A stretch of 47,556 nucleotides of DNA, taken from the IMG/VR virus record IMGVR_UViG_3300036846_000442, positions 1 to 47,556 of that record, one strand, 5' to 3'. The position numbers and the translations under genes were made by a program. The first letter of the stretch is position 1; every line of letters begins with the position of its first letter. Positions 7,266-46,912 of this stretch are shown piece after piece. Below the pieces are notes generated by a model. That model had not been told where the DNA came from. It did no database searches and saw nothing but the letters and a program-made list of their open reading frames with translations. This DNA comes from a virus.

Positions 7266-7932
7266 CGTAGATAACATTTTCACCATCACAAGCCAGGAGG
7301 ATGGCACTCGCTTTTGGGCTAGCTTCGCCGATGGTGCGCCGCTCGTGACCGACGGGTATGGCGGATGGCAGATTGTTAACCGACCCAGGGCCGTCGGCAT
7401 TGTCGAGTGGCAGGGGCGCAACCCTCTGGCAATTGAAATTCCTTTCATGATCGATTATTGGATGAGAGGAATTGATAGTCCTGGCATCCATTGCGAAACT
7501 CAGGTCAGAAGATTGGAGCGTCTTCTGGGCGTCGGTATGGCGCACCAGCCGCCGATCTGTCGAGTCGATAGCCAAGGTGTCATCCCGCATGACTATACTC
7601 TTAACAGAGGTAAGTTCTGGGTAGTCGAGAGTGTGTCCTGGGATCGTGAGCTAGAGCTACGTCATCCAAGCACGGGCCGACGGCTTCGTTGTGGAGGAAC
7701 CATGACGATCCGTCAGTTCATCACGCCTGGCGACATTCTTCGCACAATCAAGGCTACCGACAAAGCTCGTATCCCCAAGACGTACCGCGTCAAGGGTGGA
7801 GACACACTGAGCAAGATTGCCAATAAGTTCTATGGTGATCCGCATAAGTGGAAGATCATCGCCGACGCGAACCGTATCCGTGACCGCCGCCATCTTAAGC
7901 TCGGTCAAGTCCTCAAGATTCCTCCTGGATAA
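7258..7932 (+). CDS. LysM-domain baseplate/hub protein
   Basis: 224 residues if TTG 7258 is the start (overlapping the tape measure stop); TTG 7177 would add 27 residues. The last ~47 residues form a LysM domain: YRVKGGDTLSKIANKFYGD, then KLGQVLKIP. The N-terminal region is beta-rich. In Mu- and XkdP-like tails this gene follows the tape measure and links tube to baseplate hub, the LysM module probably aiding contact with peptidoglycan or hub assembly. The stop overlaps the next ATG. Confidence 0.82.
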   Translation: MADVDNIFTITSQEDGTRFWASFADGAPLVTDGYGGWQIVNRPRAVGIVEWQGRNPLAIEIPFMIDYWMRGIDSPGIHCETQVRRLERLLGVGMAHQPPICRVDSQGVIPHDYTLNRGKFWVVESVSWDRELELRHPSTGRRLRCGGTMTIRQFITPGDILRTIKATDKARIPKTYRVKGGDTLSKIANKFYGDPHKWKIIADANRIRDRRHLKLGQVLKIPPG

Positions 7933-10046
7933 TGACGACCGCAATTGATCTGATCTCAGACCCGAATCTGGGCATCGACCCTATTACCTCGATGACGACA
8001 CTGCGGCGCACTGGGTCGCAGCGCGGATACACAAACTCTGAACTGGAGCATTTCCGTATCGGCCACGGCGATATCAATTCGCTCGTACTTCAGGTCATTG
8101 CTTTTGGCAAAAAGAATCATCCAGAGCGCCACGACGCTCGGACCATCGTTTCAGATGCCACGTTCGAGGACAGCATAGACAAGACAAATACCTTCACATT
8201 AGTTGTTCACGATCCAGATTGGGACCTTCTTAATACAGGGGCGCTCGATAAGCCAATCGACCTTAACCCTGGTAACATTCCGAATTTGATCTATCGTCGT
8301 GATAGCTTCGAGGTCAGCAATGATGACATCACGATAACGTTCGTCACACGGAACGCGGCCTATATGTCGTACTACAAGCGGCCAAAGAAGGCCAATCGAA
8401 AGAACACAACGCGAGCCGAGTTCCTTCTCAGTTTGACCAGGGACGTCAAAGAAGCCAAAATTCCTTTTGTCTGTCCGCAGCTTCATCAGAACCAGAAGAT
8501 CGCGCGCACTCAGTTCCCGAATGAGATAGCTCGTCGCAAGGGCCGGGAGCATGGCTTCACCGCAAGCGACAAGATTACAGTGAAGGGCGCCACGGCCTCG
8601 CCAGCTCAGCGGCAAACCATCGAGAAGGTAATCTTGGCTGGTGAAGACTTGAAGATGCCGGGTTTGGTGATTGTATCAGCGGTGATGTGTATTACTCAGG
8701 AATCGACCGCTGGCGCCGGTACAACTGGCAACCCACCATATGTCGGAGCTTTCCAGCAGAATCGCAGTGATGGTTGGCCGGGCACAGGCGACGCATACAA
8801 AGACGCCAAAGGCAATGGTAAGATCGGCGTCAAGCAAGGTGGATACTACGGCTATGCCTATGGCATCTGGAAGGCACACGGCGGCGATATGGACTTGGGG
8901 CTGCTGGTAGCTACCACACAGGGAGTCATCGGCTCGACTAACCCGCTGAACAACGGTTATGCCCAGAGCACTAACCGATGGCGCGGAGAGGCTCAGCACG
9001 CAGTCAATGCCTTTGGAGGAATAGACGTCAGTGATCCTGGTTCCTCGACGCACAACGTTTACTACAAACAGAAGTATGAGTTTATGGTAGGTCCTCCTGA
9101 CGGCAACCGTAATGAGAACTACCTCGCTGCTTCATACCGGCTCGCCGATGAGGTGAATTGGTCTGCCTTCTGGGTTCGTGATGCTTTGCACTTTATCAGC
9201 GAGGAGGACCTGTTCAAGAGCAAGCCTCAAGCCAGCATGCGCCGCTTTGGTCGTGGCATTGAGGGAGTCAGCTTCGGTTGGGATACGCAGCAGCGCATCA
9301 ACCAGATGACGTTGAGCGTTCGTATGGAGCGGTGGGTATGCCCGCTCGGCACTGTCGTTCATTTCGAGGAGGGCGGGCCAGCAGAAGGTCGCTGGCTCGT
9401 AACCAATATACGGCGCTCTATGTTCGATGAGCTTGGCGAGATTACCCTGAGCAAGCCAATGCGCGAGAAGATGGAACCAGCCAATCAGCCTGGGGAGCGC
9501 CAAGTCAGGTCTGGTGGCAAGAACCGCTCCATCACCGATATTAGTGGGACCACCGTGGATGGGTTCAACAACCCGTTCCCGGATGGCTGGACACCAGGTC
9601 GGTTGGACATGGGTTACGATGGCACGTTCAGGAATCGGATCGTCGCGCCGTTCGATGGCTTGATCACCTATGCTGCTCAAAGGTTCTCCAACTGGGGCGG
9701 TTTCATCGTTCTTCAGTCACCAACGGATATCGGCCTACCGACCAAGACCCTGTACTTCGCGGAGGGTCTGTCCCCGACTGTTCACACCAACCAGTCGGTG
9801 AAGGCGGGACAGACAATTGCCACGCCAACGCCATCGGTGCAGGGTGGCGCAGGATCAATCGAGTGGGGAGTGGGGAATGAGGCGCACGCACTCGGCCCTG
9901 TTGATCCTTACGGCAAGACACTCGGCGGCGGATCGAGTTCTGCATCAGCAGCGTCGAGGAATATGGTGCTTGAATTCTCGGCATGGTGTCAGTCGGTCCT
10001 TGGTTTGCCAGCACCTTCAACGACAGCGGACGCGGGGCATTTCTGA
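7932..10046 (+). CDS. baseplate hub with lysozyme-like and degenerate M23-like domains
   Basis: 704 residues. Residues 1-225 resemble gpD/XkdQ-type hub proteins. About 234-370 is a transglycosylase-like region with a candidate catalytic Glu in CITQESTAG (~255) followed by Gly/Tyr-rich [10 protein letters not shown]. About 545-650 is an M23-like beta fold: DMGYD occupies the place of the usual HxGxD and EWGVG replaces the HxH region, so Zn ligands are lost. YFAEGLSP and VKAGQTIA fit the non-catalytic M23-like domains of actinophage tails. Probably punctures or remodels cell wall at injection. Confidence 0.75.
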
Positions 10047-17914: not shown

Positions 17915-18583
17915 ATGTCTAACGGTAGCCTTCCTGATATCTACCCGAACAACATCGGCGATGAGGCTTGCTATGTAGACTTCGCTCCGATCATTGATAT
18001 GTACGGCGATACTGATGGAGCACTGTGCACTTATCTACACGGCATCGCTTTGATGTATAAGCAGGTCGATGACATAGCTCAGGATGGTCCGAACGACGAG
18101 CCTGGCTGGTCACAAATCTTCGACCTCACCCGAGCTAAGACTGGGTGGCTACCTTGGACCGGACAGCTTGTAGGATACTCTGTACCGGCTCAGCCGAGCA
18201 ACCAGAGTCTTGAAGATTACGATGCTAATCAGCGCGAACGAGTCATTACAAGATCGGCTTACCGGCGCGGTGAGATCGCTATGTTGTTCGACATTATCGA
18301 TGAGCAGCTTAACCCGCCAAAGCGGGTCATCATCCTAGAGCGCAACGGCGGCGATCCATATGCCATTCAGGTCTATGTGATTATAGACGACATAGCCACG
18401 AGTCAGGCTGAGGTGATTAGAGCCGCTCTATCGCAGAAGGTGGCTGGGCTGCTTATGAACGTTAGTTTCTTCAACGCATCTGATAAAACATACGATGTGT
18501 TAATAGCCGTCACAGTTACCTATCAAGGCGTCCTTGACAACTACCCGACGTATCAGGATGTCTATGCAAATATTCATCCGTAG
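17915..18583 (+). CDS. gpI-like baseplate/tail protein
   Basis: 222 residues starting at ATG 17915. N-terminal acidic helices are followed by a central RSAYRRGEIAMLFDIID segment and a C-terminal alternating beta region. The gene stands last in the tail operon after gp25 and gpJ, as expected for gpI/DUF2612-type wedge proteins linking baseplate to fibres. It is the final gene of the late operon; the promoter of a structured RNA begins 30 nt downstream. Confidence 0.7.
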   Translation: MSNGSLPDIYPNNIGDEACYVDFAPIIDMYGDTDGALCTYLHGIALMYKQVDDIAQDGPNDEPGWSQIFDLTRAKTGWLPWTGQLVGYSVPAQPSNQSLEDYDANQRERVITRSAYRRGEIAMLFDIIDEQLNPPKRVIILERNGGDPYAIQVYVIIDDIATSQAEVIRAALSQKVAGLLMNVSFFNASDKTYDVLIAVTVTYQGVLDNYPTYQDVYANIHP

Positions 18584-18613: not shown

Positions 18614-18642
18614 TTGCAATCCGCAGCTGTCGGTGCTACGAT
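18614..18642 (+). promoter_or_regulatory. promoter for structured RNA
   Basis: TTGCAA, a 17-nt spacer, then TACGAT preceded by TGC (extended -10). Predicted transcription start is near 18649. The pattern matches the other promoters of this phage, but faces the plus strand where no gene follows, only a structured RNA. Confidence 0.6.
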
Positions 18643-18648
18643 AGCTGA

Positions 18649-18998
18649 GCGCTGAGTAGGCGACGGCTGAATCGGCGTATGGAGTGCCTGAGTGCAGAAA
18701 CCAGTCTAGGCCCCTTGGCTCTGGCTGGCGTTATGTAAAGGGCAGCCTAGTCAGGATGAGCCGCTACGTCAAGGGAGCTACCGGCTTGATGGCGTAGTAA
18801 CCCGCTGAACAAGCGGTGTAAGAGCGGCCCTGTGCCGGGGCAACTCTGGCGGAAACTCTGACCGTGGTAAAGCCACGGACGCGGCAGAGCATACGGCTGG
18901 CAAGCTGGGGGCCGTCAATGGAACGGCTTAGTCAAGCAGCACGCAGGTTAGCCGCCTGCCTCCACCATTAGGGGCCATCCTTCGGGGTGGCCCTTTTT
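18649..18998 (+). ncRNA. structured non-coding RNA of unknown class
   Basis: A ~350-nt gene-free transcript between a promoter and a strong intrinsic terminator. Visible helices include an 11-bp stem formed by CTAGGCCCCTT and AAGGG-CA-GCCTAG (about 18710-18752), CCGCT/AGCGG, GCCGG/CTGGC, a CTCTG-CCGTGG nested stem, GCCGT/ACGGC with a 7-nt loop, and GCAGG/CCTGC just before CTCCACCA. The run of helices and unpaired purines resembles a folded RNA. Short resemblances to RNase P RNA and tmRNA are not supported by their core motifs. Class unknown. Confidence 0.6.
18972..18998 (+). terminator. intrinsic terminator
   Basis: A 9-bp stem (GGGCCATCC with GGGTGGCCC) closed by a TTCG tetraloop and followed by TTTTT. 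This is the strongest rho-independent terminator in the window and ends the structured RNA. Confidence 0.9.
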
Positions 18999-19010: not shown

Positions 19011-19091
19011 TTCCCAGCTTCTCCCAGCCTCCGACGCCTACCCTGCCCTACCCCCTCGGACGAGCATGGCAAGCTGGGAGGAGGCTGGGAA
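19011..19091. terminator. bidirectional terminator between convergent transcripts
   Basis: A near-perfect inverted repeat of about 19-21 bp, with arms at 19011-19032 and 19071-19091, separates the plus-strand RNA from the end of the minus-strand early block. It lies between converging transcripts, so it can stop RNA from both sides. Confidence 0.6.
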
Positions 19092-19111
19092 CAGGGTTGG
19101 TATTCTGTACT

Positions 19112-19447
19112 TCAGCGCTCTAAGCGCTCGGAAGCGTCCTTACAGTGCGAATCAAGAGTGCGCTTGATCTTAGACAGAGCATCCTCCGCTGCCAGCGCCC
19201 GCTCTCTCCAGTAGAACGCATCATGTGATTGGTTAGGGTCAAAGTACAACCAGTAGAGCAGCAATACTGTGATCTGTCCTATGTCGCCCTGCTCCCATCG
19301 GTAGAACGTTCCTCTGCTCACACCGGCTTGCTTGGCAGCTTCGGCTGGTGTGATGTCGCGATTGAGTCGAGCCTCTCTCACTAAGCGCCCGACAAACCTA
19401 TGCTGTTCAGGAGTCGCTACAGCCGATGTGTAGTTCCGCGTACTCAC
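19112..19447 (-). CDS. XRE-type helix-turn-helix DNA-binding protein
   Basis: 111 residues from GTG 19447, whose first bases overlap the ThyX stop. A longer in-frame opening upstream runs antisense-like through thyX and is unlikely. Residues ~13-58 form an HTH: LVREARLNRDITPAEAAKQAG followed by VSRGTFYRWEQGD. A C-terminal helical region with WRERALAAEDALSKIK may dimerise. It is the last gene of the leftward block, next to the terminator; it could be a late switch regulator, not obviously an immunity repressor. Confidence 0.8.
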   Translation of the reverse strand: MSTRNYTSAVATPEQHRFVGRLVREARLNRDITPAEAAKQAGVSRGTFYRWEQGDIGQITVLLLYWLYFDPNQSHDAFYWRERALAAEDALSKIKRTLDSHCKDASERLER

Positions 19448-20394
19448 CGTATCCAGCCGGCTGTTGGATCTGCAAGCCACTCCTCGACCCTGACCTCGTC
19501 CTGGCGCCCTGAGTCCATGCGCTCGCGGATGGTGCAACCTCTGTCGAAGTCTGCCTGGAACGGACACCTGCCCATGGCAAAGCAGACCGGCCTGAACAGA
19601 TCGGACGAGGCTATGTATCTGAACTGCCATGCTGAGTCCTCAAACTGCTCGACCTCGTTCTCACTGCCGACTGTCTGGATATCGTACATATGTCCGTACT
19701 CCGCAATGGCCTTGACGATCTGTGCGCCGACGAGTCGCCATTCAAACTGGGCCTGGGTACAGAGCCGGTTCCCTAGGTGGTCCACGAGGTTGCGCAGATT
19801 GGTCTTGTAGTTGAGGCGAGTCAATGTGTCGTGCGGTAGTAGCCCCCTGGCTTCCTCAGCTGGTATGCCGTTAGCGATGAGCCACTTGTAGGCGTCCCAG
19901 ATATGGTCAATTGTCATATCCCAAAGACGGGTCGCCTGCTTGTTGGCCGCTACCAGTGGGCCGGACCTGGCAGCGATCTGCTCCTTCACCGCGAAGCGCA
20001 GTGACTCCTGAGCGTAGACTGCTGTGCGCTGCCGAACCATCTGGTGTGTGAATGCTCGTGTGACATTCTCGACCATGAAGTGTAGGTCGATTGCCTCCAA
20101 TGGCGCCTTGAGATGAGTCTTGTTGGCCTGATCCCAGTAGCGCCGTCGGTCGTCGTCATCAAGGTCAGAGAGGTCCCGAATGACTCGCCCCTCGTACATA
20201 GCGCACATCGCCCCTAGTGCGCCAAGCGGGTCAGGTGTTGCGCTCAAGAGGGTGACCTTGGGGAACAACTCCTCAGTAGGCTCCGCTTCGTACATTGCTT
20301 TGTCTACCCAGGTGCTGACTTCTGTGCCGCGCTCTTCCACTTGAACCTCCTGCCAATAGATTTTGCCAGCATCGTCTTTGAGCGGGATTCTCAT
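19444..20394 (-). CDS. thyX: flavin-dependent thymidylate synthase
   Basis: 316 residues. ThyX makes dTMP from dUMP using methylene-tetrahydrofolate, NADPH and FAD. The signature RHRx7S appears as RQR-TAVYAQE-S at residues 121-131, with Gln in place of His. Upstream are helices with MVENVTRAFTHQM; downstream are ARGLLPHDTLTRLNYKTNLRNL and HLGNRLCTQAQFEW, all typical. The size is a little above the usual 220-250. It is coupled by overlaps to the glycosyltransferase (upstream) and HTH gene (downstream). The product could be dTMP or, if specialised, a modified dUMP. Confidence 0.92.
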   Translation of the reverse strand: MRIPLKDDAGKIYWQEVQVEERGTEVSTWVDKAMYEAEPTEELFPKVTLLSATPDPLGALGAMCAMYEGRVIRDLSDLDDDDRRRYWDQANKTHLKAPLEAIDLHFMVENVTRAFTHQMVRQRTAVYAQESLRFAVKEQIAARSGPLVAANKQATRLWDMTIDHIWDAYKWLIANGIPAEEARGLLPHDTLTRLNYKTNLRNLVDHLGNRLCTQAQFEWRLVGAQIVKAIAEYGHMYDIQTVGSENEVEQFEDSAWQFRYIASSDLFRPVCFAMGRCPFQADFDRGCTIRERMDSGRQDEVRVEEWLADPTAGWIR

Positions 20395-21203
20395 TGCTTC
20401 GTCCAGTCGATTCGCTTCTCCCAGTTAGGTACATGGTCATCCATAAACTTCTTCCACCAGCATATCATGCGGCTGCCGTTATTCGGTGTGCTGATGTATC
20501 TTGGACCCCACTTGTTGTAGATGATCTTGTGCGAGTGTAGCTGTCCTTTGATTCGTCGATCCTGGTTTTCGTCGTGCAGGCTGTTGATGCCGCCCTCTGT
20601 GTAGCGACCGGCGATGCTCGTTCCATGCACTCCTGCGTGTACGTACCAAGTGGCCTGTAGGTCTGCCATTCCCTGCCGCACTAGCTCGTCATCGCCCCAA
20701 CCCGAATGCAGACGTACATCGAAGTTACCGACTGCCAACACGCGCTGCACGTTGAGACTGAAGAGCCGCTTGCCCAAAGCGCCCTTGCTCATAAGCGGGC
20801 GGTCCTCGTTCTTGATCGTTTGGTTTCCGAACATGAGTCCGTAGAACGGCACCATGATGCCGATGCCGAGTGTATTGAGTCCGTTCCATTCGTACAGCCG
20901 ATTGACGTCGTACTCGGGTCGTGGGTATATGTCGTCGTCCGACATGATGATGCGGTCGCACCCCATATCGAACGCCCTCTTGACGATTTGATTTCGGCTG
21001 TAGTTAATCCCTCGATTGCTCTCAGGCAAGATGCTGATCGAGAACTTGTTATCTCGATACCTTGCCAGCCTATTGTGATAGGCCGGGTAGTCATCCTTCT
21101 CTATGACAAAGATAACCTGTTCAACTTTCTGTCTCTGCCATTTAGGCACAATTCTGTCGATGAGGAATTCCCGCTTCCTCGATGGTATGAATACTATGCT
21201 CAT
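20391..21203 (-). CDS. GT-A-like glycosyltransferase, possibly TET-associated (TAGT-like)
   Basis: 270 residues. The N-terminus (IVFIPSRKRE) and central IIMSDDDIYPRP with Asp89-Asp91 fit a GT-A fold glycosyltransferase with a metal-binding DDD motif. A GWGDDELVRQG segment (about 170) supplies the later acidic/acceptor region. This pattern recalls phage TET-associated glycosyltransferases that act on hydroxymethylated bases, but no TET/JBP oxygenase is visible here. It lies 7 nt from dnaE and overlaps thyX. Alternative: glycosylation of a virion protein or cell-wall sugar. Confidence 0.65.
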   Translation of the reverse strand: MSIVFIPSRKREFLIDRIVPKWQRQKVEQVIFVIEKDDYPAYHNRLARYRDNKFSISILPESNRGINYSRNQIVKRAFDMGCDRIIMSDDDIYPRPEYDVNRLYEWNGLNTLGIGIMVPFYGLMFGNQTIKNEDRPLMSKGALGKRLFSLNVQRVLAVGNFDVRLHSGWGDDELVRQGMADLQATWYVHAGVHGTSIAGRYTEGGINSLHDENQDRRIKGQLHSHKIIYNKWGPRYISTPNNGSRMICWWKKFMDDHVPNWEKRIDWTKQ

Positions 21204-24763: not shown

Positions 24764-25403
24764 ATGTCTCTTTCCAGCGCTTGATGCGGTCGTTGATGAA
24801 TCTGCTGGCCATCTCTAGGTTTGTGGCCTCCGCCCTCCACCTGATCGCTCTGTTGAATGATTGCTTGCGCAGGATCGGCACCCAGTCACCGAACAGGCCG
24901 TATGCTTCTTCAAGCTCTTCCTGTAAGTCGTCCAGGACGGCGCACACCCGTTCGGGGCCGACGAGTTGGGCCAACTTTCTGTACTTGAGACCGTCGTAGA
25001 TCAGGTAGTCGTATGGGATGCGGTGCCGCCTTAGCCACTCCCTCGTGTCCGGGTCGATGTTGTCGTGTCGGATGTACGGCCTCGTCGTTGTTACCCATAG
25101 CTCGGCACCCGCCTTTTGAACGCTCTGGCACAACTCCCTGGCATCTGGGTAGACGGGCATTGTGCGCTTCAGTCCGCCCTGACGATACGCGAGCTTGATG
25201 TCGTGCCATACGTCGATGGTGACTCTGTAGTTTGTGCAGAACCATTCTTTGAACGGCTGGTTACCGACGTAGTGATCCTTTACTTTCTGGTTCAGGTAGT
25301 TGCTGGCGAATTCAAGGAAGTGCTCGTGATACCTGCCCATCGTGCCGTCGATGTCTACGGCGACGACCGGCTTGATCGTTCGGTTGCATTCAGTGCATTT
25401 CAT
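24684..25403 (-). CDS. HAD-superfamily phosphatase/5'-nucleotidase
   Basis: 239 residues. Starts MKCTECNRT, a small Cys pair, then VVAVDIDGTMG with the HAD nucleophile and acid/base Asp17 and Asp19. Motif II-like WVTTTRPY and motif IV-like CAVLDDLQEE (about residue 145) follow. HAD enzymes of this type remove phosphate from (deoxy)nucleotides. The C-terminal tail is low-complexity and overlaps the Nmad1-like gene. The start codon lies inside a dispersed repeat (25401-25450). Likely nucleotide metabolism or base-modification precursor handling. Confidence 0.75.
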   Translation of the reverse strand: MKCTECNRTIKPVVAVDIDGTMGRYHEHFLEFASNYLNQKVKDHYVGNQPFKEWFCTNYRVTIDVWHDIKLAYRQGGLKRTMPVYPDARELCQSVQKAGAELWVTTTRPYIRHDNIDPDTREWLRRHRIPYDYLIYDGLKYRKLAQLVGPERVCAVLDDLQEELEEAYGLFGDWVPILRKQSFNRAIRWRAEATNLEMASRFINDRIKRWKETYEQGPVQSNGGEHPAESSESPPKEVV

Positions 25404-25450
25404 TTTGAATGGAAAACCAAAAATTAAACTGATTTCGCGCTGTGATCAGA
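25401..25450. repeat. dispersed 50-bp repeat, copy A
   Basis: Begins cattttgaatggaaaac and ends atcaga, with aaactgatttcgcgc in between. It spans the end of the FAD gene and the start codon of the HAD gene. Four related copies lie near the origin (45375, 45437, 46386, 46443). This one sits alone, 20 kb away. Confidence 0.7.
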
Positions 25451-26245
25451 ACAGGGCATCACGCCAAATTGCTCTGAGATGGCTTCGATTGTCCGCTCAA
25501 AGGCGTTGTGTGTCAAGACGCCGCGAGTCCACGTCCCCATGCGCCCCGCCTTGATCACAGCAGGGTGACAATCGCAGTTGGTTCCCACTACCTTGAAGCC
25601 GGGCTGCCAGAACTTGTTGTTAAGAAAGACTGGTGACATCCGAGCCTCGACGCTGGGGTGGCCAAAGATGCAACTCGCTCTGTACCATGTGAACATATGG
25701 GTGCCGTTATACACGACCCAGTTCTCATCGCGCTTCTCGACCATCGGGACCTCATGGAACTCGATGTCCTTGCGCACCATGATATTCTGGGACACGAACA
25801 TGTGCTCGTTTGTCTTAGCGCAGATCGACCAGAGCGGGATTGTGCTGATGACGAGGTCGAACTCGGCGCTGAATTCATTTACATCGTCGGCGCTGACCGA
25901 GTAATCGACGATGTCGTCAGAGAACTTATCCCAGGCCGCATCGTATGTTCGGCGCAAATCCCAGGCGTCGGCGAACGGGACGACTCGATCCCACGATGTA
26001 GGGGCTGTCTCCATCCCGTAGACACGCTCCGCGTAGACTTCCGGGGCACCTACCCGGTACGTGCTGACCGAGCCTGTAGGAAGCTGGGAAGAGAGGTCGG
26101 GGATTGGCTTGTGCAGATACTGTGCGCCGTACAACTCTGACTTCTTCTTCTTGCTGATAATGACCGGCTTGATGCCATGGAGGCTAATCGCCTGTGCGGC
26201 GAACAGACCGGCGGGGCCACAACCGAGGACAGCTACTGTTGGCAT
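25424..26245 (-). CDS. FAD/NAD(P)-binding oxidoreductase-like protein
   Basis: 273 residues. N-terminal Rossmann motif VAVLGCGPAGLFAAQAI with GxGxxG at 8-13, a basic SKKKKS stretch where the second nucleotide-binding strand ends, and a middle FDLVISTIPLWS strand. The protein is shorter than full flavin oxidoreductases, and residues 195-235 hold Cys/His (TNCDCHPAVIKAGR). Neighbours are HAD and Nmad1 genes, so a role in nucleotide or base modification (oxidase/lyase-type) is possible; thyX flavin partnering is another. Confidence 0.72.
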   Translation of the reverse strand: MPTVAVLGCGPAGLFAAQAISLHGIKPVIISKKKKSELYGAQYLHKPIPDLSSQLPTGSVSTYRVGAPEVYAERVYGMETAPTSWDRVVPFADAWDLRRTYDAAWDKFSDDIVDYSVSADDVNEFSAEFDLVISTIPLWSICAKTNEHMFVSQNIMVRKDIEFHEVPMVEKRDENWVVYNGTHMFTWYRASCIFGHPSVEARMSPVFLNNKFWQPGFKVVGTNCDCHPAVIKAGRMGTWTRGVLTHNAFERTIEAISEQFGVMPCSDHSAKSV

Positions 26246-26663: not shown

Positions 26664-27446
26664 CTAGACCGGCTCCTCCACGTCGTCAGTCCGCAGCCTG
26701 GCGATGAGGACGGTGCGCTTGCCCTTGGTCTCCAGTTCCCTGTCCTTCAACTCGGAGCGCAACGCTGCCACGCTCATTGACTCGTAGTTGTCGCTCTCCT
26801 CGTCCTCCTCATCCTCATCTTCTTCTTCATCCTCGTCCTCCTCTTCATCCTCCTCTTCTTCATCCTCCTCCTCGTCCTCCATCATCTCCTGGATGGCAGC
26901 GCGGAGGTCATCGTCGGACATCGACTTCTTGACCTGTACGTCGAGTTCGTTGTCCTTGATGTACTTCTTCAACTCGGTGCGGCTCATGGAGTCGAGGTCG
27001 CTCTCCTCCTCCTCGGTCTCATCCTCATCCTCCTCAACCTCAGGAGCCTGGACCTTCATGAGCTTGCCGATGTTGGGCCGGTAGTCGCCGTTCAGATCGG
27101 TGTCCTCACGGAGCCGTGCCATGCACTCCTTGCCCTCGATCACAGCGAGGTTGCCGCCGCTGGCCTTGAGGCCAAACGCATTGACGAGTTCCTTCAGTCG
27201 CCGCGCCCAGGAGGCGTTGACGTCGACTGGTGCGTAGTACCACAGGCGGCCATACCGCTCCTTGAGCTTCTTGCCGTTGGCGTCCTTGGTCGGCGTGAAG
27301 ATGACCTCAAACTGCGGGTCGCCGCTGTTCTTGCTCGTGACCTGCTCGATGGACTCGCACTTGAGGTAGTACAAGCCGACCGGAGCCTGCTTGAAGTCGC
27401 CCTCGATTCCTGACGTGTTACCGTACTTCAGAACCTTCGCCATCAT
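26664..27446 (-). CDS. ssDNA-binding-like protein (DUF669-like) with SAP-type repeats and acidic linker
   Basis: 260 residues. Residues 1-130 resemble DUF669-type phage DNA-binding proteins (GLYYLKCESIEQV, FEVIFTP, then LKELVNAFGL). It carries two ~35-residue helical DNA-binding motifs (SMSRTELKKYI and SMSVAALRSELKDREL, the second SAP-like), separated by an Asp/Glu run of more than 25 residues. An acidic tail of this sort is typical for SSB partner recruitment. It overlaps the RecA-like ATPase by 4 nt. Likely coats ssDNA for recombination. Confidence 0.7.
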   Translation of the reverse strand: MMAKVLKYGNTSGIEGDFKQAPVGLYYLKCESIEQVTSKNSGDPQFEVIFTPTKDANGKKLKERYGRLWYYAPVDVNASWARRLKELVNAFGLKASGGNLAVIEGKECMARLREDTDLNGDYRPNIGKLMKVQAPEVEEDEDETEEEESDLDSMSRTELKKYIKDNELDVQVKKSMSDDDLRAAIQEMMEDEEEDEEEEDEEEDEDEEEDEDEEDEESDNYESMSVAALRSELKDRELETKGKRTVLIARLRTDDVEEPV

Positions 27447-35234: not shown

Positions 35235-35850
35235 CCCGCTTGACTGCTACCCTCTTGGACTTGGGCGCGGGCTGGGGCTCAGGCTCCTCCTCCTCGTCCT
35301 CATCTTCCTCGTCCTCATCCTCCTCTTCATCTTCCTCGTCCTCGTCCAGTTCCTCCTCGTCCTCCAGTTCCTCCTCATCCTCGTCTTCCAGTTCCTCGTC
35401 CTCCTCCAACTCCTCCACGTCCTCCGGCTCCTCAACCTCCTTGACCTTCTTCCTGGAGGCTCCCTTCTTGGCCGCTGTCTTCTTGGCAGCCGCCTTTTTG
35501 GCGCCGGAGCGGTCCTGCTTGATGATGGCCTCCTCGGCGTTGTCCGGGCCGTACTCCCTCAGGAGCCGACGGCCGGTCATCGAGCCGGGAAGTGCCCAGT
35601 CGTACTTGTCCTCGACCAGCTGCGTGATGTCGGGCCAGCTGGTGGACGGCGACTTGGAGCGCTCACGGAAGATGAGCTTGGCGATATTGCGCTTCTTGGC
35701 TTCGCTCAGACCCTCCAGCTTGTCGGGGCCGCGCGTCCGGCCTGTGGTCTTCTTGGCGCCGTTCTCGGCGCTGTCGGTGCTGGCCGCCTTCTTCGTGGCG
35801 GTGCGCTTCGTGGCAGTGGACGCCTTGTTGGCGGTCCGCTTCGTGGCCAT
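35212..35850 (-). CDS. histone H1-like lysine/alanine-rich protein with acidic tail
   Basis: 212 residues from ATG 35850, with AGGAGG at ideal spacing behind promoter 35888-35916. Residues 1-45 are Lys/Thr/Ala repeats (TKRTANKAS, TATKRTATKKAA); the middle is KKAAAKKTAAKKGASRKK-like, as in bacterial histone H1-like proteins; then comes a long Glu/Asp run of more than 40 residues (ELEDEDEEELEDEEEL) before a basic C-terminus. Likely DNA compaction or nucleoid competition. The frame is open further upstream (35851-36189). Confidence 0.72.
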   Translation of the reverse strand: MATKRTANKASTATKRTATKKAASTDSAENGAKKTTGRTRGPDKLEGLSEAKKRNIAKLIFRERSKSPSTSWPDITQLVEDKYDWALPGSMTGRRLLREYGPDNAEEAIIKQDRSGAKKAAAKKTAAKKGASRKKVKEVEEPEDVEELEEDEELEDEDEEELEDEEELDEDEEDEEEDEDEEDEDEEEEPEPQPAPKSKRVAVKRGGRSKKS

Positions 35851-40822: not shown

Positions 40823-40840
40823 ATGTGGTTTGTACTTCAT

Positions 40841-40903
40841 TCGCGCAGGCGGGGAATTGAACCCCGCAACAAGATAAATCGTGGCCTTGTTCCATTCTGC
40901 GCG
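40841..40903 (-). ncRNA. tRNA-like element (acceptor and T-arm, no D-arm)
   Basis: Minus strand CGCGCAG pairs with CTGCGCG as a perfect 7-bp acceptor; a GCGGGG-TTCAATT-CCCCGC T-arm has a near-consensus T loop. Between them only ~30 nt remain, with an AACAAG/CTTGTT stem around a 12-nt loop. A D-arm and a standard anticodon loop are missing, so it cannot be an ordinary tRNA. It resembles the 3' module of tmRNA or other tRNA-like RNAs. Confidence 0.55.
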
Positions 40904-41354
40904 CGTGTCCCTTAGTGGTCTGCCAGCCTACACTCTCGATGTAGGTTATGGCTATTGCGTCGTCTGTCACACGGCTTGCACTCGCACTGTACTGTGACCC
41001 ACGCAGGTTTACGTGATTCCGCGGCTACCATCGTCCCTTGTTTTGCTCATCTGCTTGCTAATCGGTTCATCGCTTCACTCCCTCCGGTCCATCGCGTTTC
41101 GCTCAAAAAGGTAGAGCTACTAACTTCACCGGACTTCGCTCAGCGTCCCTCCGATCACTCGGGCAGGATCGGCTAACAAAGTCTGCGTCACCGTTCTGTG
41201 GTCTCTGCTTCCTGGCTTAGCCTGCCAGTCTCCGGGGGTCAGGACGGTCCCCCTTGCTCCTCACGGTCCACCGAATCACTACCCGCGAGGCCACCCTACA
41301 CTTTCACCCTTCACCGACTTGTTTACTTCACTGTTCCCGGCGCGGGGCGTCCGC
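40841..41354 (-). ncRNA. long structured non-coding RNA
   Basis: About 510 nt with no gene, downstream of promoter 41361-41389. Helices seen in order: GGGGC-GGAC-GCCCC at the 5' end, GGGGG/CCCCC, CTGGC/GCCAG, CCGATC/GATCGG, GTCC/GGAC, TCCGGT/ACCGGA, GTCACA/TGTGAC, CCTACA/TGTAGG and the tRNA-like 3' end. Many GAA/GNRA-like loops and repeats of GATGRACCG type. No class identified; the size is near the large RNAs known from phages (GOLLD or ROOL), but this is a guess. Reading continues into the leftward operon, so it may be a processed leader. Confidence 0.6.
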
Positions 41355-41360
41355 CCCTAG

Positions 41361-41389
41361 AGCTTAGCAGAATCCGCTCGCAGACGCAA
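41361..41389 (-). promoter_or_regulatory. promoter for long RNA and leftward block
   Basis: Minus strand TTGCGT, 17 nt, TGC-TAAGCT. The predicted start is near 41354. Likely the main promoter of the leftward early operon. Confidence 0.65.
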
Positions 41390-41418
41390 GCAAGTGCTAG
41401 GTCACTTCGCGTCATGGG

Positions 41419-45148: not shown

Positions 45149-45374
45149 GGCCCGCGCGAGCCATGATATGATTTATATGTTTATGGGTTGTGTGGTTCTG
45201 GCGTATGCGCGCGTGCGCACGTACCGGGTCAGAAGTACCTGCACTGACACAAAATAGCCACATCACAGCCTGAAGTCATGTCAACACAAGGGGGCTGCAT
45301 ATTAGTGATGTGCTTCATCTGTATCATGCTATCCACACTGTTGTATCTGTGTGTTGAGCTGGGTGTCTTCAAGT

Positions 45375-45424
45375 CATTTTGAGTGGAAAACAATGATTTT
45401 AACTGATTTTGCGCACACATCAGA
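45375..45424. repeat. dispersed 50-bp repeat, copy B
   Basis: cattttgagtggaaaacaa, then actgattttgcgc and catcaga. It lies in the gene-free region between origin and HNH operon. Confidence 0.65.
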
Positions 45425-45436
45425 CCAAGACAAACT

Positions 45437-45489
45437 CATTTTGAATGGAAAAACAATGATTCGGCTGATTTCGCGGCCCACATCAGAAC
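45437..45489. repeat. dispersed 50-bp repeat, copy C
   Basis: cattttgaatggaaaaaca, then ctgatttcgcgg and catcaga. Twelve bases after copy B. Confidence 0.65.
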
Positions 45490-45526
45490 AGTGAAACAAC
45501 CCAATTTCACATCAGCTCATTGGGCG

Positions 45527-46385: not shown

Positions 46386-46437
46386 CGTTTTGGATGGAAA
46401 ACAATTGATTAAACTGATCCTGCGCTGACCATCACAC
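46386..46437. repeat. dispersed 50-bp repeat, copy D
   Basis: ttttggatggaaaacaatt, then aaactgatcctgcgc and accatcaca. More divergent than the others. Confidence 0.55.
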
Positions 46438-46442
46438 CAACT

Positions 46443-46493
46443 CATTTTGAATGAAAAACAATGAATTAAACTGATCCTGCGCCGCCGGTCAGA
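46443..46493. repeat. dispersed 50-bp repeat, copy E
   Basis: cattttgaatgaaaaacaat, then aaactgatcctgcgc and ggtcaga. Six bases from copy D; D and E may have arisen by duplication. Confidence 0.6.
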
Positions 46494-46912
46494 TCAGGCC
46501 AGCTCACCCTATTCCAGACCACTGTCACACTGCCATCCGGTCACACATCACACCGGATGTCGGTTCATCAGACCACCGGACACCGGTACATCAGCACACC
46601 TCACTCCAGGCGGGTTGCCAGCGCAACAACCCCAGCTCAGCTCACCGCCCGGCCACGCGCGCTGTCGCGCCGCCTGCGGCGCTGGCGCCGCTGGTCTGGG
46701 GCGTCGGCCGACCCTGGTCTGGCCTGGGCCGCTAGCGGCCTGGCAGAGGTGTCTCTGGGCCTGTCGGGCCGTCGGGCCGTCGGCTGTTCTGTCCGGGCCG
46801 TCGGGCGGTGGATGTCGGTCTTAACGTGCCGTTAATACAACTGGGCTGCTTCTACGCTAAGCTTGTCTTGCAAGTCCGGGAACGGCCCGGACTCCACCGA
46901 GAGGAGCCAGAA
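46494..46912. other. GC-rich gene-free stretch
   Basis: Base composition rises strongly from about 46590. It contains short tandem GGGCCGTC repeats (about 46768-46808) and a TTAACG-TGC-CGTTAA inverted repeat near 46820-46834 that looks like an operator ahead of the next gene. A TAAGCT -10-like box lies near 46857 with a poor -35. No gene seen. Confidence 0.5.

Follow-up and report, generated by a model that had tools for sequence, protein, structure and literature searches.

To our knowledge, few structured phage RNAs have been described beyond tRNAs, GOLLD and ROOL, and most of them have no known function. The pRNA of phage phi29 is likewise a structured phage RNA, shorter than the RNA considered here and found in a different setting; the latter has no Rfam match. 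GOLLD and ROOL are ornate phage RNAs whose function is unknown and which form RNA-only cages (PMC12286853). The most abundant transcript of phage ICP1 is a non-coding phage RNA, the same phage is reported to transcribe another region of about 300 bp that holds no gene, and the PLE transcript shows antisense homology to its own leaders (PMC7567579).

The window, that is, the whole stretch of 47,556 nt of viral DNA analysed here, almost certainly contains a structured RNA gene at 18649-18998 on the + strand with its own promoter and a UUCG-loop terminator, as judged from sequence comparison. GOLLD and ROOL are nearest to it in kind, being borne by phages or prophages, non-coding, stand-alone and highly structured with pseudoknots, but they measure about 600-800 nt or more against about 350 nt here, their covariance models do not match, and the window has no tRNA array. 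The RNA also recalls tmRNA in its core of about 300 nt, its short terminal helix, the hairpin abutting the 3' strand of that helix and its 3' end CTCCACCA; it differs in that the end helix has 5 bp, the T-loop is absent, the CCA is not conserved and there is no conserved tag reading frame. With phage morons it shares the organization of a self-contained promoter-to-terminator cassette placed between conserved genes and sporadic among relatives, whereas it yields a structured RNA where a moron encodes a protein. The ICP1 and PLE transcripts are comparable as non-coding phage or satellite transcripts in gene-free spaces; they belong to other phages, are compared by description only, and no such antisense homology was found here.

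The locus is the gap between the last tail gene (17915-18583, + strand) and the convergent early genes, which end at 19112 on the - strand, and these gene coordinates bear out the placement between the late operon and the early block given in an earlier note on this DNA. That note was also right that the interval has no coding capacity: inside it, the + strand has no ORF of at least 50 aa in the ORF list, and no ORF is conserved, the longest small ORFs differing among homologs. The tag-like frame is not kept either, the window reading ATG GAG TGC where the most divergent homolog, L034, reads ATG GAG TGA. A peptide gene was ruled out on the grounds that the ORFs are not conserved between homologs. 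The predicted transcript, about 350 nt long, opens with the 5' hairpin P0, continues into a core of about 290 nt and ends in the terminator. The features are as follows.

18614-18642, + strand: putative promoter, -35 TTGCAA (18614-18619), 17-nt spacer, -10 TACGAT (18637-18642)
18649-18678, + strand: P0, 5' hairpin at the presumed transcript start, pairs 18649-18655/18672-18678
18679-18967, + strand: RNA core, closed by P1 (18680-18684/18960-18964)
18685-18744, + strand: domain I, with P2 (18685-18689/18739-18744, bulged G18742) and P2b (18693-18696/18734-18737)
within 18685-18744, + strand: domain I, continued, with P3 (18701-18706/18723-18728) and P3b (18710-18712/18717-18719)
18714-18936, + strand: proposed pseudoknot of the P3b loop (18714-18716, CUU) with 18934-18936 (AAG)
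18763-18798, + strand: P5, variable hairpin, CTACG..CGTAG in the window
18802-18806/18812-18816, + strand: P6 hairpin, within the invariant 28-nt stretch GTAACCCGCTGAACAAGCGGTGTAAGAG (18797-18824)
18827-18841, + strand: P7 hairpin with a conserved TGTGC loop
18856-18889, + strand: P8 (18856-18860/18885-18889) and P8b (18862-18867/18873-18878)
18898-18908, + strand: invariant segment TGGCAAGCTGG, identical in 3/3 homologs
18911-18927, + strand: P9 hairpin
18943-18959, + strand: P10 hairpin GCAGG/CCTGC, immediately adjacent to the 3' strand of P1
18970-18998, + strand: intrinsic terminator, 11-bp stem (18970-18980/18985-18995), UUCG loop, T5
19014-19096, no strand assigned: inverted repeat TTCCCAGC..CTCC / GGAGGCTGGGAA at the convergent junction, part of the ancestral locus and not of the RNA cassette

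The RNA is known from three sequences, those of the window phage, L002 and L034. L002 is a 94% relative whose neighbouring tail gene is 100% identical at the best protein segment. Between the two, the core (18679-18967) differs at 4/289 positions and the third codon positions of that tail gene at 13/222. The low divergence of the core, amid a changed promoter spacer and a changed P0, looks like selection on the RNA rather than a recombination tract. The second homolog (L034:5635-5312, - strand), found with a degenerate pattern that left the helix positions free, is 71% identical over 333 nt. Its record, G018, comes from a phage with a contractile tail and with genes for terminase, portal, baseplate and endolysin; the detectable counterparts of the window proteins there share mostly 23-37% identity, rising to 60% over short stretches. 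When 2.9 million viral contigs were searched with four patterns, two contigs were recovered besides the window. The pattern GGCGGAAACTCTGACC matched only L010 (the L002 contig) plus unrelated sequences, GTAACC...GGTGTAA matched L034, L010 and one unrelated sequence, and GGAGTGNNNGAGTGCAGAAA retrieved the L034 and L010 contigs again; the extra matches of CGCGNCAG...TGGCAAGCTGG were all unrelated. Two patterns gave nothing in the genomes of 84,980 prokaryote species, and blastn gave no credible match in phage and plasmid collections. As all these searches used exact patterns or blastn, more diverged members would escape them. With three copies in hand, the RNA looks like an undescribed accessory RNA family in phages.

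Only 8/12 positions of the window promoter match the consensus, and simple scans for promoters and terminators listed neither the window promoter nor the terminator. The promoter call is based instead on comparison: L002 has the same -35 hexamer and a single change in the -10, against 7/17 differing spacer positions, and in L034 a promoter-like pair, TTGCGT-17-TAAACT, recurs at nearly the same offset (37 vs 36 nt before the core) in a region alignable to the window (GCTTGC..TCC.CAGCTG..GTGC.TA). Of the promoter first read as TTGCAA-17-TGC-TACGAT, the hexamers stand and the extra TGC does not, the 17-nt spacer already including it. The terminator proposed at the 3' end is confirmed as an 11-bp stem capped by UUCG and followed by T5, with 0/31 differences between the window and L002; in L034 the loop is UUCG too and the stem sequence is different. 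A 5' hairpin, about 10 bp long, is also present in the L034 copy. Because promoter, 5' hairpin, core and terminator all recur in L034, the whole cassette is homologous. Just upstream of the L034 promoter (L034:5690-5760, - strand) lies a T-arm-like sequence, GCAGGGTTCGAACCCTTACTCGCTCA, which could be the remnant of a tRNA 3' end; ARAGORN calls no tRNA there.

In the predicted fold, all 7/7 pairs of P0 are present in the three sequences, two of them changed on both sides, and between the window and L002 the region 18646-18678 has diverged by 24% (8/33) with every pair kept. In domain I, P2 and P3 have two compensatory changes each, and the same bulged G occurs in P2 of the window and L034. The proposed pseudoknot pairs CUU with AAG in the window and L002 and CCC with GGG in L034, so that 2/3 pairs are changed on both sides. 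The partition function gives the P5 pairs of the window a probability near 1; P5 was omitted from the pair count because the alignment to L034 is unreliable there. P7 has one pair changed on both sides in alignment A2 and one cell unpaired, at a gap placement. P8, P8b, P9 and P10 have one compensatory pair each, with one cell unpaired in P9. P1 and P6, of 5 bp each, are invariant and therefore neutral as to covariation, the 28-nt stretch around P6 being identical between the window and L034. Alternative pairings may also occur in the modelled fold. Fifteen bases of the invariant P6 region (TAACCCGCTGAACAA) recur in sense orientation at 8939-8953, within the tail-region gene 7932-10046, probably by chance. 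The description of about 320 nt with many helices, including an 11-bp stem, holds for the structure; the 11-bp stem is not an extra helix but the terminator itself.

Folded alone, the window RNA gives a modest signal (z -2.3 sense, -0.2 antisense) and the L034 RNA a strong one (z -4.3). For the core of the window and L034 together, the RNAalifold energy is -83.6, compared to -55.3 +/- 5.6 for column shuffles (z -5.1, with 0/200 shuffles reaching it), and adding P0 brings the score to z -6.9 (again 0/200). A model of 61 pairs including the loop pseudoknot, curated on the same sequences as were used to test it, has 98.4% of its cells paired and shows two-sided changes in 13 pairs; 0/500 shuffles did as well, and slid controls were 32-47% paired. 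Since two of the three sequences are nearly identical, this covariation is essentially one deep comparison. When every possible helix was counted without guidance, 11 had at least two compensatory changes against a null of 7.6, and 21/200 shuffles attained 11. This raw count is not separable from the null, and the evidence for the fold is thus that of the energy-based shuffle test and of the coherent model.

Searches against Rfam, at gathering and relaxed thresholds, returned only chance matches for the window RNA (e.g., microRNAs in the downstream hairpin) and likewise for the L034 RNA, which rules out the Rfam families covered. The comparative evidence is decisive for a structured RNA, and the original proposal of such an RNA with its own promoter and terminator is supported. 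The tmRNA model RF00023 had no match at E<=10 in records G000 or G018, compared to matches in 14/14 control genomes, and the GOLLD and ROOL covariance models of Rfam gave no match at E<=10. ARAGORN found 0 tRNA genes in the window, which rules out a tRNA; a tmRNA is ruled out by the lack of an RF00023 match, of a T-loop and of a conserved tag frame. GCAGG/CCTGC and CTCCACCA are indeed present and the TTCRA loop is indeed missing, the loop at the tRNA-like 3' end being TTAGCCG or CCAGCCT. The resemblance to a tRNA-like 3' end holds for the topology, in which P10 abuts P1; it does not extend to a T-loop, to an ARAGORN or tmRNA match, or to a conserved CCA, the end CTCCACCA of the window being CTCCACCCC in L034.

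The other structured RNA of the window has no similarity to the 18649-18998 RNA. A long gene-poor stretch at 40830-41400 (- strand), probably the first structured RNA of the earlier note, ends in a tRNA-like module with a 7-bp acceptor-like stem, CGCGCAG/CTGCGCG, and the T-arm GCGGGGTTCAATTCCCCGC; this module weakly resembles mascRNA (E 0.32). Two relatives, L055 and L051, carry related DNA, and this RNA therefore seems more widely kept in the phage group than that at 18649-18998.

Two dnaE relatives, L026 and L027 (protein level: 89% and 86%), retain the last tail gene followed by the inverted repeat of the convergent junction, with no RNA between them. A hairpin corresponding to the 19014-19096 repeat follows the tail region in both, and in L026 the place of the RNA is taken by a small ORF. 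This inverted repeat probably stops transcription of the convergent operons from both sides. A search of four related records (G012-G015) with a sequence profile, not a covariance model, found no copy in the sequence covered, which in two records stopped at most a few hundred bases short of the end. In L034 the RNA comes before the terminase genes, shares their strand and is near the contig end. Missing at the L026/L027 junction and placed elsewhere in L034, the RNA thus counts as an accessory element that is independent of the late/early boundary. Like a moron, it has a predicted promoter and terminator of its own and is placed between genes that are adjacent in relatives. In the window, the terminator and then convergent genes follow it, unlike a riboswitch or leader, and since the downstream genes are convergent the RNA is not cis-acting there; the L034 copy may have a cis or packaging role.

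We propose that transcription would begin at a sigma-70-type promoter and give an RNA of about 350 nt headed by the 5' hairpin P0, that P1 would close and the loop pseudoknot brace a compact core of about 290 nt, and that the UUCG-loop terminator would end the transcript. Transcription would be independent of the late operon. The accessory cassette appears to have moved as one unit, as the RNA counterpart of a phage moron. The folded RNA would act in trans, with the P6 region, TGGCAAGCTGG and GAGTGCAGAAA as contacts to a protein or ribonucleoprotein of the phage or of its host, which is probably an actinobacterium. Most likely it would modulate takeover, defence or lysogeny and would not be needed for any essential function of the phage. 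The RNA is read as trans-acting and partner-binding because of its predicted stand-alone transcription, the concentration of selection on a folded core that includes long invariant segments, and its sporadic occurrence. On sequence evidence, a trans-acting accessory cassette is likely; a binding or decoy mechanism, reached by elimination, is advanced tentatively. We put the probability of the whole statement (RNA gene, mobile accessory cassette, trans action and partner binding) at about 0.45. Its narrower form, an undescribed, mobile family of RNA morons acting in trans on a host machine (RNA polymerase, the ribosome or a defence complex being proposed examples) through structural mimicry or sequestration, is conceivable but rather doubtful. 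The RNA is of a size that suits probing, cryo-EM and pulldown, and its secondary structure model is testable; since it is apparently optional for the phage, its effect should be measurable by presence and absence.

The earlier note had suggested an RNA that regulates the late/early switch; it could do so as an antisense RNA or riboregulator of neighbouring phage genes. The gene does sit, with a promoter of its own, right where the late tail operon meets the convergent early block, which agrees with this, but L026 and L027 have the same junction without the RNA, the L034 copy precedes the terminase genes, and within the genome no 12-mer complementarity to + strand transcripts was found and - strand matches were at chance level. 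The switch is therefore not supported and seems unlikely, and the same search rules out a long antisense target within the phage's own DNA. Similarly improbable is a small relative in kind of GOLLD and ROOL, self-assembling into a homo-oligomeric complex. The RNA is phage-borne, stand-alone and accessory, with an intricate pseudoknotted fold, and GOLLD and ROOL do form RNA-only cages (PMC12286853); it is, however, about half their length or less, matches neither in Rfam, has no palindromic loop conserved for kissing contacts that we noticed, and is accompanied by no tRNA array in the window.

Less probable still is an RNA counter-defence, in which the RNA would mimic a host guide or defence RNA in the manner of RNA anti-CRISPRs: a sporadic cassette with its own promoter is the typical setting of counter-defence genes, but no repeat-like segment was identified in the RNA. 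A packaging or virion RNA like phi29 pRNA is very unlikely, as the location of the L034 copy upstream of terminase genes is offset by that of the window RNA downstream of the tail module, by the lack of a profile match in related phages, which must package DNA, and by the smaller size of the phi29 pRNA. That there is no functional RNA, with conservation due to recent recombination and the fold to GC-rich sequence, would fit the window z of only -2.3 and helix counts within the null, but is largely contradicted by the column-shuffle (0/200) and 61-pair tests, with compensatory changes at 71% identity and hexamers conserved amid a diverged spacer, and is highly improbable.

Elsewhere in the window, dispersed repeats sharing ATTTTGAATGGAAAACAATGA..CTGAT occur at 25400-25470, 45371-45507 and 46388-46501, and segments at 26797-26890 and 35284-35457, in two distant early regions, are repeated with up to 82% identity. 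At 19444-21203 (- strand), a thymidylate-synthase-like gene adjoins a TET-associated glycosyltransferase-like gene, a pair that suggests modified bases in the phage DNA.
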